A program made the position numbers and the translations under genes. 31,516 bases of DNA from a virus. Positions 1-27,836 of this stretch are shown in pieces; the first letter of the stretch is position 1, and each line of letters starts with the position of its first letter. The stretch spans positions 1 through 31,516 of the IMG/VR virus record IMGVR_UViG_3300025759_000410, one strand, 5' to 3'. The notes under the pieces were generated by a model. It was not told the origin of the DNA. It was given only the letters and a program-made list of their open reading frames with translations, and made no database searches.

Positions 1-928
1 CATTCTCCAGGGCGGTAACACGAGTAAGTAAATCAGCGTTTTGAGTTTCAAGCGTTTCAATCTTAGCAATAGCTTCCTGCAGTGCAGCAGTCAACAAAGG
101 CACAAGTTTGGACTGGTCAATACCTTGATAAACAGGATTGTTGTCATCGTCAACTTCGTCTTGCGTTCCAGTGACAGCTTCAGGCACAACAGCTTGTGCT
201 TCGTGAGCAATGAAGCCGTCAACCGTGGTGTCAGGATCCGCGATGAAGTTGAAGCGACGTACCTGAAGCTGATTGACGCGATCAATAGCACCAGTTAGGT
301 CAACAACGTTTTCTTTGAGGCGGTGGTCAGAAGAAGTATTAAAAGCAGTTGCAGAGCCACTCGTGCTTATAGAGCCTACAAAACCATTGGGATTGGCAAA
401 ACTAAGGTGAAATGCTTGACTTGTGGATGTAGCGCCAGAGCTAGCGGTGTGATCGGTTTTGAATACTTTGCCAGCCTGTGTACCTCCTTCAATCGCAGAT
501 ATAGAGTTCGTACCTCCGGTAAAAAAGTTACCGCTGGAATCGATGCGCGCCCGCTCGTTTCCACGTGTTTCAAACTTAATGAATGAGGTGCTTCCTGAGC
601 CGCTTTGACCTGCTAATACAAGCGGCTGAGACGCTAGTATTTGAATTCTTGCTTCTGTTGATGATTGCTCAATTTGTAAAGGGTTAGTAGTTGTGCCTTC
701 ATTCAGCCTAATTGCAGCATCAGTGTCTGCAGGCGTCTTAATTTCGAGTGGTGCACCTGGGGTTGCCGTGCCAATACCAACATTTTGCGAGCTATCAACA
801 GTAACAGCTTCCGTTCCACCAGTAACTAGCTTAAGTTCGTTAGTACCAACCTGCAGACCAGTGTCTGTATCATCCCCACTAAATCCAGGGTTTGCGACTG
901 AATTGTCGCCGTTAATTTTAATAGTCAT
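1..928 (-). CDS. Tail-fibre-like protein with C-terminal Peptidase S74 chaperone domain (partial)
   Basis: The reading frame is open from ATG at 928 to the window edge (309 codons, no stop), so the C terminus is missing. Residues 1 to about 195 are Gly/Ser/Thr-rich fibre-like sequence with the motif VGIGTATPGAPLEI, common in phage fibres. Residues 200-208 read SDHRLKENV, the hallmark of the S74 intramolecular chaperone. It is followed by GFIAHEAQAVVPEAVTG and a heptad-like end (VPLLTAALQEAIAKI, then ETLETQNADLLTRV) expected to form a trimeric coiled coil. In this family the domain drives trimerisation and then cuts itself off just before the conserved Ser (here Ser200, with Lys205 as likely partner). 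It follows the main tail fibre by only 2 bases, so it is probably a second fibre or tip protein. The domain call is firm; the structural role is inferred from family and position. Confidence 0.9.
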   Translation of the reverse strand, partial: MTIKINGDNSVANPGFSGDDTDTGLQVGTNELKLVTGGTEAVTVDSSQNVGIGTATPGAPLEIKTPADTDAAIRLNEGTTTNPLQIEQSSTEARIQILASQPLVLAGQSGSGSTSFIKFETRGNERARIDSSGNFFTGGTNSISAIEGGTQAGKVFKTDHTASSGATSTSQAFHLSFANPNGFVGSISTSGSATAFNTSSDHRLKENVVDLTGAIDRVNQLQVRRFNFIADPDTTVDGFIAHEAQAVVPEAVTGTQDEVDDDNNPVYQGIDQSKLVPLLTAALQEAIAKIETLETQNADLLTRVTALEN

Positions 929-21613: not shown

Positions 21614-22272
21614 TAAGCGTTAACCATTCCTGATTGAATTGTGGCTAGACCGGTATAAGGGGATGCGGTACCAAACTGTGAACCAATACGGCGACGGAAC
21701 TGTTGAGCAGCACCAAGCTTAGGAGTTGTACCAGCACCTTGGAGTTGGAGACTAGGTTGCAGGCTTGCGCTATAAGCATTTTGAGCTTGAGCACGCATAG
21801 CAATTTCCATTTGTTTACGCTGTTCTTCTGCTTGCTTAGCCTGTTCAATCATCATCTGCTCATACCGTGCCATCATCTCCTCACGCTCCTTTTGGAAATC
21901 AAGTACCTGCTGATCAGTGGATGACGTGTCAAATGACGGCTCTCTATCACGATCACGATCTCTCGATTTTTTAGATCTCTTTTGCTTTGGCCCACCTGAG
22001 ATGTACATCATATCGGGAGTGCCACCATCCATCTTTCTGTAGAAGTCTGCTCTCCGCCTTTCATAGACATCGCGAGACATTCTATCAGACCTGAACTGCG
22101 GCTCAATACCACGCATACGCGGAATACCACCGTACTTTTTCTCTAGCTTTTTCTTCTGTTTTTTACTAAAGCCAAGATACCTTGATGATGAGTATTTATA
22201 CTGGTCCCTTTTACTCGCTTCGGGACGTTTTACTGCATACTTGTAGCTTTTTTTATCTTTCTTTTTGCCCAT
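21613..22272 (-). CDS. Hypothetical basic, coiled-coil protein before the portal (219 aa)
   Basis: Start at ATG 22272, supported by GGAGGA six bases before it on the coding strand and by a TAATG overlap with the previous gene; an in-frame upstream Met at 22302 is less likely. The N-terminal half is Lys/Arg/Tyr-rich (GKKKDKKSYKYAVKRPEASK). The middle has KSRDRDRDREPSF, then a Gln/Met/Glu-rich helix (KEREEMMARYEQMMIEQAKQ) likely to be coiled coil. The C terminus is Ser/Gln/Gly-rich. Its place, right before the portal, is that of T7 genes 6.7-7.3, which encode small virion or tail-assembly proteins. That is a weak hint that it is a virion protein. I do not recognise a named family. Confidence 0.78.
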   Translation of the reverse strand: MGKKKDKKSYKYAVKRPEASKRDQYKYSSSRYLGFSKKQKKKLEKKYGGIPRMRGIEPQFRSDRMSRDVYERRRADFYRKMDGGTPDMMYISGGPKQKRSKKSRDRDRDREPSFDTSSTDQQVLDFQKEREEMMARYEQMMIEQAKQAEEQRKQMEIAMRAQAQNAYSASLQPSLQLQGAGTTPKLGAAQQFRRRIGSQFGTASPYTGLATIQSGMVNA

Positions 22273-22454
22273 TAGTTTTCCTCCATATATTTGATGACCC
22301 ACTCAACGACACTACGTTGACCGGATCGGTACATAATTTTTTCCATTGTATCGTCAGGTGTAGGGTTTGTGGGTGGGAAGGATTCTTCTAGTGCATGAAT
22401 TAAACCTCGGGAGTTCATCCCAAGGACTTCAAGCATATTGGGGGAGGTTGACAT
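22272..22454 (-). CDS. Small hypothetical protein after nrdB (60 aa)
   Basis: Start probably at ATG 22454 (overlapping nrdB by 26 bases); the frame is open upstream to 22523, and ATG 22436 is an alternative. The sequence MSTSPNMLEVLGMNSRGLIH, then ALEESFPPTNPTPDDTMEKI and SVVEWVIKYMEEN has a Pro-rich linker between two helices. The ALEESFPP...DDTMEKIMYRSGQRSVVEW core looks like a conserved small cyanophage protein, but I cannot name it. It overlaps the next gene by TAATG. Function unknown. Confidence 0.72.
   Translation of the reverse strand: MSTSPNMLEVLGMNSRGLIHALEESFPPTNPTPDDTMEKIMYRSGQRSVVEWVIKYMEEN
22279..22284 (-). promoter_or_regulatory. Shine-Dalgarno deciding the start at 22272
   Basis: GGAGGA on the coding strand, six bases before ATG 22272. 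It lies inside the end of the upstream small ORF and favours the shorter reading over the in-frame Met at 22302. Confidence 0.75.
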
Positions 22455-23145
22455 TGCTATGCTCGAAGAAGGCTGGCATTCTAGCTGCTTTAGTTGCGGA
22501 CAATTCTGGGGCTTTACCCTCATACATTAGCCGGTCGCTAGAATCCAGCCAAAATTTTTTGTCCAAATATTTATCGGTAGTATTTACACCTAGTGGTTGC
22601 ATTACCCAATTGATAGTTGCCTTCCTGAGTTTATCAAGAGAAGGACTGATGTTATACCCCAGCTCAGTATGAACCAGACTATTGGTAGCCACATGAATTT
22701 GTTCATCTCGACTAATATCAGCGGAAACCGTTCTCATCCCAGCGTCACCATTAAAGCGGAAGAATGGTAGAAGAACGAAGAAAATCGCACGTTCAGCCAC
22801 CATGGCTTTCGTGATCGTGTGATCTGGATGTGCCTCCCAAGCGGTCCTAAGCCTCTTGGCTTCCTTCTCAGCTTGCGGATCAACACCGTAAGCATTGGCG
22901 ATGTAACCAAGTGCGAGGTCATGGTTCTCTTCGTCTTTAACGTTGGATGCCAGTATTTCACGGGCCAACGTTGGTACTTCACTATTGAGGGCATGAGTAA
23001 TAAAATCTCCCACAGGCAGTTCCATATGTCGCAATGCAAGAGCACGGAAGATCGCTTCCTCCGCGCCCGCTTTGCATGTACCAGCAGTTGTCTGTACTGG
23101 CGTCCATTTGCGCTTCCGCGCTTGTAGTTTTTCGTAAGGGTTCAT
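22429..23145 (-). CDS. nrdB: Ribonucleotide reductase class I beta subunit, lacking the usual radical tyrosine
   Basis: Start at ATG 23145, overlapping the nrdA stop as ATGA; a TTG nine bases upstream is less likely. The 238-aa protein has the ferritin-like metal ligand set: Glu29 or Glu30 (GAEEAIFRAL), ExxH at 72-75 (DEENH), Glu118 (VAERAIF) and ExxH at 148-151 (SRDEQIH). In E. coli NrdB the radical Tyr122 is four residues after the first His. Here that position is Leu79. The protein is also short (E. coli NrdB is about 375 aa). It should pair with the adjacent alpha subunit to make dNTPs. The missing Tyr points to a metal-based or otherwise unusual radical generator, as known for some class I subclasses. 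Confidence 0.88.
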   Translation of the reverse strand: MNPYEKLQARKRKWTPVQTTAGTCKAGAEEAIFRALALRHMELPVGDFITHALNSEVPTLAREILASNVKDEENHDLALGYIANAYGVDPQAEKEAKRLRTAWEAHPDHTITKAMVAERAIFFVLLPFFRFNGDAGMRTVSADISRDEQIHVATNSLVHTELGYNISPSLDKLRKATINWVMQPLGVNTTDKYLDKKFWLDSSDRLMYEGKAPELSATKAARMPAFFEHSNVNLPQYA

Positions 23146-24533
23146 TCTGCACAATCACATTGAGGTTCTGGTGTCTCCTCTTCAGTGATTAGGCTAGCAA
23201 GATAGTCCTCGACCTCTGTCTCTTCGAGAGCAGCATACGCGCTTGACTTATCTTGAACGTCGCCCATCACCTGGAGACTATAATAAAGAGAAGTCTGGGG
23301 CGATTCAAGCCACTCCTGGATAAACTCTTCATCATACGTGACCACATCGGACCACGAGTTGAAGCTGTAACCATGTAGAAGTCCAGTCTTGTTAAGTAGA
23401 GTCATGATGCCATCGGCAACACGTTTGTAAGCTTCCCAGCCTACTTTACTGGCGATCTCTACGTCACCATAGTTGTATGTTTGTACTCCGAAAGTACCTG
23501 AGTCACGATCGACTGTCTGCGAGATAGGCGGAGCGATTTCTGGTGTGCAAGTATAGCCATCCAGATCTGTGCTTCGATAACTGCAGGAGGCAGTGGGCGC
23601 AATAGCAAAGGCTCGAACCATTTCATTGTTGCGAGCAATGCTGGCTGCAAGCTCAATGCCAGTGTTAATTTGGGTGACAAGTTCATAGGCTGCAGACCGT
23701 ACTGATTCTCCTTTGTTGAATTGTTCCAACGCTCGACCAAACTGGTCATACGTCACTCCGTACCGACGAAGTAGGTTGGCGAGTCCGAGCAATCCCAACC
23801 CAACTTGTCTGTCAGTTTCACTGGGGAGATACTCTCCGCTGCTCCCAACACCTGTTTTACCATGGAGTTGGCACAGTTGGGACATACCTTCAGCAAAAGC
23901 GTTAGGGATGTCGTCGAACTCACAGGCACCGAGATTGACATGTTGGAGTAGACAGGTACCTCGTGAGGGCAGGTAAACCTCAAGGCAGACGTTACCTCGG
24001 ATGCGTTTTCCTTCGTTGTCATATTTTACTTTGTTGAGCCAGATGTCACCTGATTTGATACCGTAGAGGAGGTCCTCCTTAAACGTACACCCCTCCCACC
24101 ATTCGGGGGTGATGTTGATGCATCGCTTAACCCACGGAAGCTCGGATCGAGGAGTGAGAATAAAGTCACGAGCATCAGGATGGGATAAATCAAGGTGGCA
24201 AACAATCGCACCGTTACGATAAGTGCCTCCGCGCCGAAGTATTTCATTTAGCGTTGAGTAGATTTTTGCAAAGGATACTGGCCCGCTCGCAATGAGTTTG
24301 TCATTTCCTTTAACCGACTCAGTTCCTTTGGGTCGCAGTTTCGACAGGTGGATCGCGCAGCCTGCTCCATTTCGTAGAGCGTGACTAGCAAATTTCCAGC
24401 TTGATTCAATTCCATCAGGTCCCTCCATAGAGTCTTCGACGGTGAATACCGTGCACGACACCGGCAGTCTGGACGTTGGATTATCCAACCAAGATTGGAC
24501 ACGTCCCGTGCGAGAAATATAAGATGCGGTCAT
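23142..24533 (-). CDS. nrdA: Ribonucleotide reductase catalytic (alpha) subunit, compact
   Basis: A 463-aa catalytic subunit without the N-terminal ATP-cone (allosteric activity) domain. Catalytic elements visible: Cys27 and Cys194 (active-site redox pair; VSCTVF, GTCLLQ), Asn181-x-Cys183-x-Glu185 (NVCLE, thiyl-radical site), the PTASCS loop at 313-318, and a C-terminal CDC pair (Cys459, Cys461). Tyr417-Tyr418 (SLYYS) corresponds to the class I radical-transfer Tyr pair, which class II enzymes do not need. With nrdB next to it, this supports class I, although the sequence style resembles small class II (B12) enzymes. It reduces ribonucleotides for phage DNA synthesis. The start overlaps the MazG-like stop by ATGA. 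Confidence 0.9.
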   Translation of the reverse strand: MTASYISRTGRVQSWLDNPTSRLPVSCTVFTVEDSMEGPDGIESSWKFASHALRNGAGCAIHLSKLRPKGTESVKGNDKLIASGPVSFAKIYSTLNEILRRGGTYRNGAIVCHLDLSHPDARDFILTPRSELPWVKRCINITPEWWEGCTFKEDLLYGIKSGDIWLNKVKYDNEGKRIRGNVCLEVYLPSRGTCLLQHVNLGACEFDDIPNAFAEGMSQLCQLHGKTGVGSSGEYLPSETDRQVGLGLLGLANLLRRYGVTYDQFGRALEQFNKGESVRSAAYELVTQINTGIELAASIARNNEMVRAFAIAPTASCSYRSTDLDGYTCTPEIAPPISQTVDRDSGTFGVQTYNYGDVEIASKVGWEAYKRVADGIMTLLNKTGLLHGYSFNSWSDVVTYDEEFIQEWLESPQTSLYYSLQVMGDVQDKSSAYAALEETEVEDYLASLITEEETPEPQCDCAE

Positions 24534-24913
24534 GGGTTGATAAGGTCGTTCAAAATGGGAGGCTGGTAGTTTGGTCCTTTCAGGACTTTACCATCGGCTC
24601 GGCGGATGGGTGTACCGTCTAATCCTAGCTTAGACATGTTGCTTCTGTGGACGCGATCTAGTGCCTCTTCTAGATCCCACTCCATGTTCTCGGCATATTG
24701 GAAGCAAACATACACAAGATCTGCAAGCTCTTTCAGTTCGTTTTCGTATGGTTCGTTGTGAAATGCACTGCGGAATTCATGATACTCTTCATCGATCAAA
24801 CCCAGTTGCATAGTCCGGTTGTCCGGCGTGTTCTGGATCCCATACGCTGAACGGAATTGAATTGCTTGATCGCTCAGACTGTTCGACCTGCAGTGTTGTG
24901 TGGTAGAGTTCAT
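24530..24913 (-). CDS. MazG-like nucleotide pyrophosphohydrolase
   Basis: Start most likely at ATG 24913 (127 aa). The frame is open upstream to 25000, but that part is low-complexity and basic. The all-alpha NTP-pyrophosphatase motifs are present: LIDEEYHEFRSAF (EExxE-type), then NELKELADLVYVCFQYAENM (ExxD). The C-terminal RSNMSKLGLDGTPIRRADGKV and GPNYQPP is typical of the phage MazG/dCTPase-like group. It would hydrolyse certain (d)NTPs or modified nucleotides, cleaning the pool before reduction by RNR. It overlaps the DUF3310 frame by about 125 bases and nrdA by 4 bases. Confidence 0.85.
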   Translation of the reverse strand: MNSTTQHCRSNSLSDQAIQFRSAYGIQNTPDNRTMQLGLIDEEYHEFRSAFHNEPYENELKELADLVYVCFQYAENMEWDLEEALDRVHRSNMSKLGLDGTPIRRADGKVLKGPNYQPPILNDLINP

Positions 24914-25088
24914 TTTCAAGGTAGTGGATAGCCTTTTTAAGATCTTTCTCTTTCGATTCAGAAGACTTGTAACCGGCTCTGCAAATATATTTAATAGCAT
25001 TGCCGAGATGGTAATTGAGTTGTTGGTCTCGGATAAAATCCCAGACTTCTATGGCTCCTCGTGTGTAGTGGGCGGGTGAATCGGCCAT
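24789..25088 (-). CDS. DUF3310 / T7 gp1.7-like protein
   Basis: A 99-aa protein. Residues 7-64 carry the DUF3310 pattern: HYTRGAIEVWDFI, LNYHLGNAIKYICRAGYKS, KEKDLKKAIHYLENEL. T7 gp1.7, a nucleotide kinase, has this domain; whether this one is an active kinase is not known. The last 40 residues (QVEQSERSSNSIPF...) are unlike the domain and overlap the MazG-like gene in another frame. It lies in a nucleotide-metabolism cluster with MazG and RNR. Confidence 0.8.
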   Translation of the reverse strand: MADSPAHYTRGAIEVWDFIRDQQLNYHLGNAIKYICRAGYKSSESKEKDLKKAIHYLENELYHTTLQVEQSERSSNSIPFSVWDPEHAGQPDYATGFDR

Positions 25089-25961: not shown

Positions 25962-26077
25962 CTGCCTTGCCCCCGATAAGCTTTCTTACCACGCTTGGGG
26001 ACGGAATTACGTCCGCTGCCTTGACGGGTTTTCTTTGCGACTGATTTAATCTCAGTCTTGTTTTTCTTGCTGTACAT
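25958..26077 (-). CDS. Tiny basic protein (39 aa)
   Basis: ATG at 26077 to TGA at 25958: MYSKKNKTEIKSVAKKTRQG followed by SGRNSVPKRGKKAYRGQGR. It overlaps the polymerase stop as TAATG and the exonuclease start as GTGA, so it bridges the two genes exactly. Nearly a third of the residues are Lys or Arg. It is likely nucleic-acid binding, in line with its replication neighbours; family unknown. It echoes the basic style of the 19-aa and 54-aa ORFs after hli. Confidence 0.72.
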   Translation of the reverse strand: MYSKKNKTEIKSVAKKTRQGSGRNSVPKRGKKAYRGQGR

Positions 26078-27348
26078 TAATGAGTTTCACTCCAGTTGTT
26101 TCCGTGGGTTGCTTCCGCGTCGATGCGGATGCGCATGTTGTAGTACTCCCCAGCTGCTGTAGCGCTGTATACCAGGGATGTTGATAAGTCCCCAACGTGT
26201 TCTGGGGCGCATTCAAATTGTAGTTCGTCATGAATAAAGGCTAACTGCGATGCACATAGCTGTGCGTCTCGCATTGTGTCTTGGTTGATAACCATCCACC
26301 GCTTTGCGATAACACCGGCTCCTGACTGGAGGCAGTAGTTCAACGCTTTGTGAGGTGAATCAACCGCAATTTTTCTTCCGTCGATAGACTTGATGAACCC
26401 TCTCTCCGAAGCTTTTTTGATAGCTTCGAGCAAGTCACCCAATCCTTCAATTGCTTCGACGTATGCTGCACGGATCTCTTTACCCTTTGCTTTAGCTTTT
26501 GCAGTGGAGAGTTGTGGGTCATAACTGTGTCCGATTTTTTCGTCACCCGCACCGTACAGCATAGCGTACGTCACGGTCTTCACAGCCCTACGGCTGATAC
26601 CTATTCGGTCAGCGTTGACCTGGTGGATGTCTCCGTTGAGGAGGATGTCGGCATAACGTCCTTCATCATACTTAGCCAAATAATGGGCAAGCATACGAAG
26701 TTCAATGCCAGACAAATCAGCCCCGACCATATGTAACCCCGGACTCGGGATAAAGAGCTTTCTAAATCGTTCATCAGCGGGGGTCTGCCCAAGGTTGGGG
26801 TTACGGTGGGCACATCTGTGCGTGTTAGTTGCGACGGAACAATGATGATGGATACGCTTAGCAGTCGTACTCAACTTCAGCCAGGCGTTTGCGCCTTCTG
26901 AGATCATTCCAAGCATCTTCGTTATCGTCAAAATCCGGAGGAACATCGTCGCTACTTCCGTCCCAATCTCCTTCAGGATCACCTCGTCGATAACAGGTTT
27001 CCCAGTAGTCGTCTTCTGCTTTGGAGTCCAGCCATAGAATTGTTGCAAGATCCATGATATATGATCGCGAGAGGATGTGTTGAGTTCTTTCAGTCGAGTA
27101 AAGGATGCACCCTTGACATATCCTTGCGTGCGGTTATCTCGTTTAGGAGTGAATTCCGATCCTCGGACGAAAGGGTGCCGGTTTCGTAGTAGCTCTTCAG
27201 TTTCTCTAAGTTCTTGTCTGAGAGTAAATGCAAGTTCCCATGCAGCGTTCTCATCAAAAGCCCATCCATGAATTTCTTGTTGTGTGAGGATTTCTTGTAC
27301 CCTGTGTTCTAGCGCGACCCACTCAGGTATGGGAGGAAGTGGTGCCAT
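26077..27348 (-). CDS. DNA polymerase A family, polymerase domain (gp5-like, split)
   Basis: Start at ATG 27348 (423 aa), overlapping the exonuclease ORF by 40 bases; the frame is open up to 27405. All three polymerase motifs are intact: motif A Asp211 (GADLSGIELRMLAHYL), motif B RRAVKTVTYAMLYGAG (Arg253, Lys257, Tyr261), motif C HDE with Asp374 (FIHDELQFE). Comparison with T7 gp5 from memory: WVALEHRVQEILTQQEIHGW matches the region after the T7 exonuclease domain. The segment equivalent to the thioredoxin-binding loop, before SSRDHI, is about half as long. With the separate exonuclease ORF it would form the replicative polymerase. It may be two proteins or a frameshifted one. Confidence 0.93.
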   Translation of the reverse strand: MAPLPPIPEWVALEHRVQEILTQQEIHGWAFDENAAWELAFTLRQELRETEELLRNRHPFVRGSEFTPKRDNRTQGYVKGASFTRLKELNTSSRDHISWILQQFYGWTPKQKTTTGKPVIDEVILKEIGTEVATMFLRILTITKMLGMISEGANAWLKLSTTAKRIHHHCSVATNTHRCAHRNPNLGQTPADERFRKLFIPSPGLHMVGADLSGIELRMLAHYLAKYDEGRYADILLNGDIHQVNADRIGISRRAVKTVTYAMLYGAGDEKIGHSYDPQLSTAKAKAKGKEIRAAYVEAIEGLGDLLEAIKKASERGFIKSIDGRKIAVDSPHKALNYCLQSGAGVIAKRWMVINQDTMRDAQLCASQLAFIHDELQFECAPEHVGDLSTSLVYSATAAGEYYNMRIRIDAEATHGNNWSETH

Positions 27349-27836
27349 AATTTTGTTGTGACCTTCACGTCTTGAATACAGTAGTCCTCCATTTCTTGTG
27401 ACCATGTTTTCCAGTCAGAATTGCTTCCGTAGTTTCCTTTGTGTTCTTTAAGCCTGTGACCGTATGCTTCAAGCGAGTGCTTGCCGTACAACTTTAGAGG
27501 CATACCATCCCAGTTATGCTTTTTATCTAAGTTAACCATGTCTGGATGATACAGCCTGCTGAGTAGCAGAGTGTCAATCACGTACGGTTTTTGGAACCAA
27601 GGGTAGAGCTTGCAGATAACAGGTATGTCATACCCTATGATGTTGTGACCAATGATTTGATCAGCATCCGCAAGTCTCTGTATGCCCCTACTAATCGGTT
27701 CTTGATTACCTTCGTCGTTATACGATAAGGTTTGGTCCGTCGTGAGATCATGGATAGCCAGGCAGTGGATGGTAGTAACATCTTTTAACAGTCCGTCTGT
27801 TTCTATGTCAAAGACTAAACTCACTTCCCGTTCCAT
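27309..27836 (-). CDS. DNA polymerase 3'-5' exonuclease domain (split gp5 N-terminal part)
   Basis: A 175-aa proofreading domain with Exo I (DIETDG; Asp10, Glu12), Exo II (GHNIIGYD; Asp70) and Exo III (YCIQDVKVT; Tyr152, Asp156). It corresponds to the N-terminal part of T7 gp5 (Asp5, Glu7, Asp65, Asp174). The ORF ends just after Exo III (KLWHHFLPYLSGSR), where T7 gp5 continues into the polymerase. The polymerase ORF lies in the -1 frame and overlaps by 40 bases. So this is either a true two-gene polymerase, a programmed frameshift, or a sequencing error. Its ATG at 27836 lies inside the end of the 43-aa ORF. Confidence 0.92.
   Translation of the reverse strand: MEREVSLVFDIETDGLLKDVTTIHCLAIHDLTTDQTLSYNDEGNQEPISRGIQRLADADQIIGHNIIGYDIPVICKLYPWFQKPYVIDTLLLSRLYHPDMVNLDKKHNWDGMPLKLYGKHSLEAYGHRLKEHKGNYGSNSDWKTWSQEMEDYCIQDVKVTTKLWHHFLPYLSGSR

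Follow-up and report, generated by a model that had tools for sequence, protein, structure and literature searches.

A class O ribonucleotide reductase of a T7-like marine cyanophage whose β subunit lacks the radical tyrosine and probably holds its oxidant on metals

The window analysed here is the whole of IMG/VR virus record IMGVR_UViG_3300025759_000410, a stretch of 31,516 bases from a T7-like cyanophage. It encodes a ribonucleotide reductase whose small β subunit carries a leucine where a radical tyrosine would be expected, which raises the question of how such a subunit could supply an oxidising equivalent to its α partner. The two genes lie together on the minus strand:

22429–23145, minus strand: β subunit of a class O (Cyano SP) ribonucleotide reductase, 238 residues, assigned from its open reading frame (ORF), its residues and PHROG 6799 (E = 5e-134)
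23142–24533, minus strand: α subunit of the same enzyme, 463 residues, matching PDB entry 7urg over residues 5–463 (E = 1.7e-227)

The answer that we consider very probable is that this is a class O enzyme of the marine T7-like cyanophage type, in which a minimal R2-like β subunit bears a metal-centred oxidant that is passed to α by proton-coupled electron transfer. An initial sequence-only reading of the window had described a compact class I enzyme. Its coordinates and residues (the β ligands, Leu79 and Tyr81; an α subunit of 463 residues with NVCLE and Tyr417–Tyr418) are all correct and the compactness of the pair is real; what has changed is the filing, since such enzymes have formed a separate class O since Burnim 2022 (PMC9531940).

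Much of the framework is already published. Harrison 2019 (PMC6370689) found the β gene of cyanophage P-SSP7, noted the missing Tyr122, described a first shell of E/E/H/E/E/H and a second shell of D/D, and proposed a new subclass, 'Cyano SP'; the same paper recounts that the cyanophage enzymes were once called class II and later argued to be class I, as the earlier reading had stated. Burnim 2022 (PMC9531940) assigned the α subunits to a distinct class O (the letter being printed as a slashed O) that diverged before the split between class I and class II and is nearer to class II in α sequence, reported the cryo-electron microscopy structure of the S-CBP4 α subunit (PDB code 7urg), and described β subunits with Phe or Leu at the tyrosine site and a short tail ending just past a Tyr. 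The window contributes a new class O member, its missing tyrosine, ligand set and tyrosine dyad being of the kind given in these two papers; the additions made here are an argument against Tyr81 from natural variation, a split at residue 46 and a chromosomal gene pair. Among ribonucleotide reductases of the class I/II type, those of class O are the smallest, and one phylogeny also gives them the most basal position.

The metal ligands of the window β are E42, E72xxH75, E118 and E148xxH151, and D71, L79, Y81, D147 and Y237 were confirmed alongside them. Leu79 occupies the site of Tyr122 in Escherichia coli, and the published rule that the radical tyrosine stands four residues past the EXXH motif (PMC8463856) lands on this same leucine. 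For comparison, β sequences were gathered from ten phage records and by scanning viral contigs and species genomes; 241 loci, all with a β frame, were examined, giving 186 distinct βs together with the window once duplicates had been removed. The larger scans contributed the best 80 of 600 matches, and near relatives are sampled more densely than far ones. Among 50,697 phage records, 56 encode the β subunit. In the deposited DNA of P-RSP2 (L088 2501–3207) and of the S-CBP4 record NC_025464 (L082 2498–3210) the β frame is broken.

Ligand conservation across the family is nearly complete: E42, E72 and H75 are each present in all 185 filled rows, E118 in 186 of 186, E148 in 182 of 183 and H151 in 181 of 182 that are readable. 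Site 79 is Leu in 182 of the 186 βs and Phe in three (SS120-1 and two related loci), with one row unfilled and no Tyr at all, which bears out the claim that the radical tyrosine is absent and separates these proteins from classes Ia and Ib. Class Ie, in which three carboxylate ligands are lost and the tyrosine becomes 3,4-dihydroxyphenylalanine, does not fit either, as all ligands are kept and there is no Tyr to modify. The sequence-only reading had suggested Tyr81 as a substitute radical residue, and a stable tyrosyl radical there, two residues past the usual site, would suit its place near the first EXXH motif and its retention in 175 of the 185 filled rows. The remaining ten, however, have Phe (six), Met (two), Leu (one) or Asn (one; a further row is unfilled), and they include the S-TIP28 isolate and a chromosomal Limnothrix β, both of which keep the ligands; position i+6 would moreover lie off the i+4 helix face that is directed towards the metals. 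Judged from these alignments, no tyrosine near the metals is retained family-wide and Tyr81 is dispensable in nature, so that it is an unlikely radical site because of these replacements and the tyrosyl-radical alternative is highly improbable. Every other tyrosine of β was set aside on conservation. The sole Tyr column identical in all filled rows (181 of 181) is Tyr237, the second-last residue of the window β, as in class O βs; among the tryptophans, Trp14 is found in 185 of 185, Trp180 in 183 of 183 and Trp103 in 184 of 185.

The fold of β was predicted with AlphaFold2 from 57 rows, comprising the window and 56 sequences chosen from 224 complete βs at less than 86% mutual identity. The model (mean predicted local distance difference test score, pLDDT, of 91.4; predicted template-modelling score of 0.87) corresponds to an R2 fold. 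R2 proteins ranked first in a Foldseek search of the PDB (best E = 7.6e-4), and VIA-align superposed the model on 2rcc_B with a Z score of 19.7 and a root-mean-square deviation of 3.0 over 217 residues. All 50 entries listed by VIA-align are R2 proteins or R2-like ligand-binding oxidases (R2lox; Z of 18.2–19.7); no other ferritin-like family is among these 50, and further families may lie beyond them. Against the E. coli holocomplex chains 6w4x_C and 9db2_C, model residues 1..238 align with 33..357 (range ends only), and because the model spans this range Tyr237 is likely to be the counterpart of Tyr356, falling at or beside it. In a comparison of models, one member with Lys at position 46 (L166) has its ligand helix broken at residue 43, the window helix being continuous over residues 29–53; this is a one-residue DSSP difference and nothing is inferred from it.

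The closeness in fold of R2lox structures (3ee4, Z of 18.6) invites the alternative that β is an R2lox-like, ligand-binding Mn/Fe oxidase and not the radical source for α. The gene arrangement argues otherwise: the β ATG at 23145 overlaps the α stop codon (ATGA), an overlap that makes the listed TTG start at 23154 unnecessary, and the frame runs to a stop ending at 22429; β stands beside α in most loci, and its C-terminal Tyr is invariant. We regard an R2lox-like role as very unlikely.

The α subunit has a redox pair of Cys27 and Cys194, Cys183 within NVCLE (181–185), the Tyr417–Tyr418 dyad and a C459-D-C461 tail; it has no ATP cone, and Pfam detects the barrel domain only. These features align with C30/C196, C185 and Y420–Y421 of the S-CBP4 protein, to which the window α is homologous over its full length (72% identity to the annotated protein). 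The two systems share the lack of an ATP cone, the CXC tail, a ferritin-like gene just downstream, Leu at the tyrosine site and Gly46, and show no difference in kind, the window being a new sequence. P-SSP7 is also close (β 76%, α 67% identical) and has the same first shell (E/E/H/E/E/H), second shell (D/D) and missing Tyr122; the window β differs by one extra residue before the second ligand (E72/H75 versus E71/H74). The size of α falls within the range of about 400–470 residues typical of class O, and its finger-loop NVCLE, tyrosine dyad and C-terminal CXC (CXC or CXXC in the class), with the small E..EXXH/E..EXXH gene immediately downstream, complete the class O signature.

Conservation was assessed in 145 distinct near-full αs taken from 182 rows, including the window and three added by hand, with shorter sequences excluded. 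The dyad reads YY in 144, the last having an unreadable letter; NVC is invariant, within NVCLE in 141, NVCEE in two, NVCNE in one and one unreadable. Cys27 is present in all 142 readable rows and Cys194 in all 144, and the tail is CXC in 81 and CXXC in 64. An α match occurs in the fetched stretch of 214 of the 241 β loci; the β–α pairing, being conserved, is more than chance. These data bear on two further alternatives. One is that α is an adenosylcobalamin-using class II enzyme and the small ferritin-like protein has another role, a view to which the class II model TIGR02504 lends something as the best-scoring model for α (E = 1.4e-20, below its cut-off), as do the phage records that still label the enzyme class II. 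In the S-CBP4 structure, however, the tyrosine dyad stacks on the catalytic Cys and fills the space of the adenosyl pocket (PMC9531940), NVCLE is a class O finger-loop motif absent in full from the class I/II sets described in PMC9669993, and α frequently accompanies β, whose ligands do not drift. A class II enzyme is accordingly given little chance, and the B12 independence proposed by the sequence-only reading is likely by structural analogy with the S-CBP4 α. The other alternative, a degenerate or inactive enzyme, could appeal to an α far shorter than usual and to the lack of any reported activity, but the catalytic residues are near-invariant in 145 αs and 186 βs and the P-SSP7 homologues are co-expressed in infection (PMC6370689, citing Lindell 2007); it is the least probable of the alternatives considered.

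With no Tyr at the radical site, and none nearby conserved across the βs, the metals themselves are the most likely carriers of the oxidising equivalent, as had been suggested from the sequence. From the residues, their conservation and the modelled fold we infer this metal-centred oxidant, its probable metals and the order of transfer. The 238-residue β would fold as a minimal R2 with two metals bound by four Glu and two His and would hold the oxidising equivalent on those metals, as in class Ic, the cofactor of which is Mn(IV)Fe(III), or class Id, the cofactor of which is Mn2(IV,III). On docking, the probable route would lead from the metal site to Trp14 and Asp147 and on to Tyr237 at the extreme C-terminus, from there through Tyr418–Tyr417 to Cys183 of α. 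Cys183 would then carry out ribonucleotide reduction with the Cys27/Cys194 pair, which the CDC tail of α would re-reduce. If the oxidant is metal-centred, dimanganese is our tentative first choice, an Mn/Fe centre a possible though somewhat less favoured second, and a diiron or other centre the least likely of the three.

A four-Glu first shell is common to classes Ic and Id (Table 3, PMC6370689) and is shared by the window β. Class Ic R2 (Chlamydia trachomatis) also resembles it in having a non-Tyr radical site and in fold (4d8f_A, Z of 19.2); it differs in its second-shell Glu119 where the window has Asp71, in Phe where the window has Leu and in being much longer, and class Ic and Cyano SP do not cluster in the trees or networks presented in PMC6370689. 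Class Id R2 (NrdBi; F. johnsoniae, L. blandensis and F. ignava), for which a metal-centred oxidant is established, is also close in fold (6sf4_B, Z of 19.3) and has, like class O, Gly or Lys four residues past the first ligand in different subgroups. In class Id the site retains a Tyr that carries no radical, and a Trp is conserved at ligand+7 (Trp246; PMC6754362), in contrast to class O, which has Leu or Phe at the former position and Ile (122), Leu (62) or Val (1) at the latter, residue 49, in 185 βs. Because class O lacks both the class Id Tyr and the class Id Trp, assignment of the window enzyme to class Id is disfavoured.

Several observations weigh against a metal-centred class O radical generator. 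Tyr81 is replaced in just 10 of 185 βs, and this minority could differ in mechanism. No significant homology of β to PF00268 or to any known R2 was detected: Pfam gave no match at E ≤ 1 and NCBIfam none, the best hit of a profile search of the PDB had an E of 0.085, and hhalign to E. coli NrdB returned a probability of 0.5%. The R2 assignment rests for this reason on fold and residues; of the alignment and superposition with R2 proteins proposed as a check, the superposition gave an R2 fold (VIA-align Z up to 19.7) and the alignment no significant match. The tail that bears Tyr237 is modelled at a pLDDT of 53–55, which makes its match to Tyr356 support and not proof, and β stops one residue past Tyr237, so that it is without the usual α-binding tail (PMC9531940). 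A 2026 preprint (PMC12918982) describes class O as 'yet to be biochemically characterized', and we found no published activity of any class O enzyme.

The position four residues past the first ligand offers a further point of contact with class Id. There, a conserved Lys (E170/K174 in L. blandensis, E239/K243 in F. ignava) is directed towards the metals and is proposed to attract superoxide; it evolved from Gly, and its conservation is limited to a class Id subgroup (PMC6754362). In F. johnsoniae the equivalent residues are E67 (Table 3, PMC6370689) and Lys71 (PMC8463856). The corresponding residue 46 of the class O βs is Gly in 122, Lys in 57, Ala in four and Arg in two of 185 filled rows, the window and S-CBP4, so far the member under study, having Gly46. 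In a 66-row tree built with column 46 omitted, the Lys/Arg rows fall in one clade (22 Lys, 2 Arg, 1 Ala; support 100/98) containing Syn5, S-TIP28, SS120-1, S-CBS4 and environmental relatives, and the Gly phages fall in its sister (35 Gly, 1 Ala; support 100/98) with the window, P-SSP7 and S-CBP4. Column 46 requires five changes on this tree versus 24.1 in shuffles; long-branch warnings concern the Mic1 pair, L105 and L106/L107, none of them within the Gly or the Lys/Arg clade. The α tail follows the same division: among 130 α–β pairs (15 αs without a matching distinct β were set aside), Gly46 occurs with CXC in 78 and CXXC in three, Lys/Arg46 with CXXC in 47 and Ala46 with one of each, an association expected from two old clades and not independent evidence.

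This division allows a more speculative proposal, which we think doubtful but worth stating: that class O βs use a metal-only, probably manganese-based oxidant and that the superoxide entry of class Id exists among them in two forms, the K46 phages assembling Mn2(IV,III) with superoxide and the G46 phages needing another oxidant or metal, so that the class Id step from Gly to Lys would have a separate class O counterpart. If this were true, superoxide for the K46 phages should be supplied by the illuminated cyanobacterium. The split in any case supplies natural variants in pairs with which metal and oxidant can be tested. Term searches of PMC6370689 and PMC9531940 (main text) turned up neither the split nor the chromosomal pair described below, and neither was apparent in literature listings (supplements and most subscription papers lying outside this scope), and no report on any Lys46 member was found.

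Scanning species genomes yielded 17 loci, many on contigs from metagenome-assembled genomes or single cells that are close to phage sequences and are probably phage contigs. The class O genes of loci L092–L104 sit on contigs that binning assigned to Flavobacteriales, Euryarchaeota, Dehalococcoidia and other groups; they closely resemble cyanophage sequences and may be wrongly binned phage DNA, a point relevant to any claim of class O members in bacteria. Limnothrix sp. CACIAM 69d encodes a class O pair (L107 3591–4988 and 5001–5720), with an α of 465 residues (NVCNE, YY, CXXC) and a β of 239 (Leu at site 79, Met at 81), between metE-like and proS-like genes named by reading their translations. 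The same arrangement is found in a second Limnothrix-like cyanobacterial genome (G024), on a contig of 472,125 bases (L262 7177–9306). Among 388 genomes sampled from the class, three have the β, the third on a short contig. A Limnothrix-like chromosomal pair could be used to test function in a free-living cell, although both genomes also encode a class II enzyme that scores above the TIGR02505 cut-off. Short ORFs that look alike by eye (L107 3038–3502 and 5801–6289; 154 and 162 residues) lie on either side of the Limnothrix pair, and the class II enzyme of this genome (L251/L253, G002:C52) lies in a single 1512-residue frame with a long intein-like insert between model positions 378 and 387.

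An intact β of class O type is present in Calothrix membranacea FACHB-236 (L105 4929–5720), and a search of its genome for a class O α found none. The β was considered as a neighbour of the Calothrix class II enzyme and this was rejected, the two being on separate contigs (16,077 and 46,963 bases). With PF02867, the Calothrix genome showed no α and the Limnothrix genome class O α fragments only; since the class II enzymes of both appeared only with TIGR02505, absence from a PF02867 search is misleading on its own. In Microcystis phage Mic1 (L087 2483–3253, L243) α and β are about 12 kb apart and not side by side.

The gene order around the window pair, on one strand and with names given partly by reading translations, is exonuclease, DUF3310, MazG-like, α, β, two short ORFs, portal, scaffold, hli and psbA, a close match to P-SSP7 and Syn5. 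Two neighbours adjoin the enzyme genes:

24530–25000, minus strand: MazG-like nucleotide pyrophosphohydrolase directly upstream of α (PF01503, E = 1.7e-7; PHROG 671, E = 5.5e-33)
22272–22457, minus strand: ORF of 61 residues overlapping the β 3′ end, beside structural genes (PHROG 4970, E = 1.3e-22)

The former, which has an equivalent at the same place in S-CBP4 and Syn5, is probably a nucleotide-metabolism neighbour outside the enzyme itself. The latter has a weak Bbp19-like Pfam match (E = 0.037, below cut-off), and P-SSP7, Syn5, S-TIP28 and SS120-1 have a short ORF at the equivalent place; conserved and of no assigned function, it is probably not part of the enzyme. A search of the window for NrdI found none, although the 31,516-base record may be a fragment. 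Repeats near the α and β genes appear to be due to chance. The DNA polymerase of the window is spread over two overlapping ORFs (26077–27405, 442 residues; 27309–27836, 175 residues), and for this gene the P-SSP7 record mentions a split variant or programmed event.

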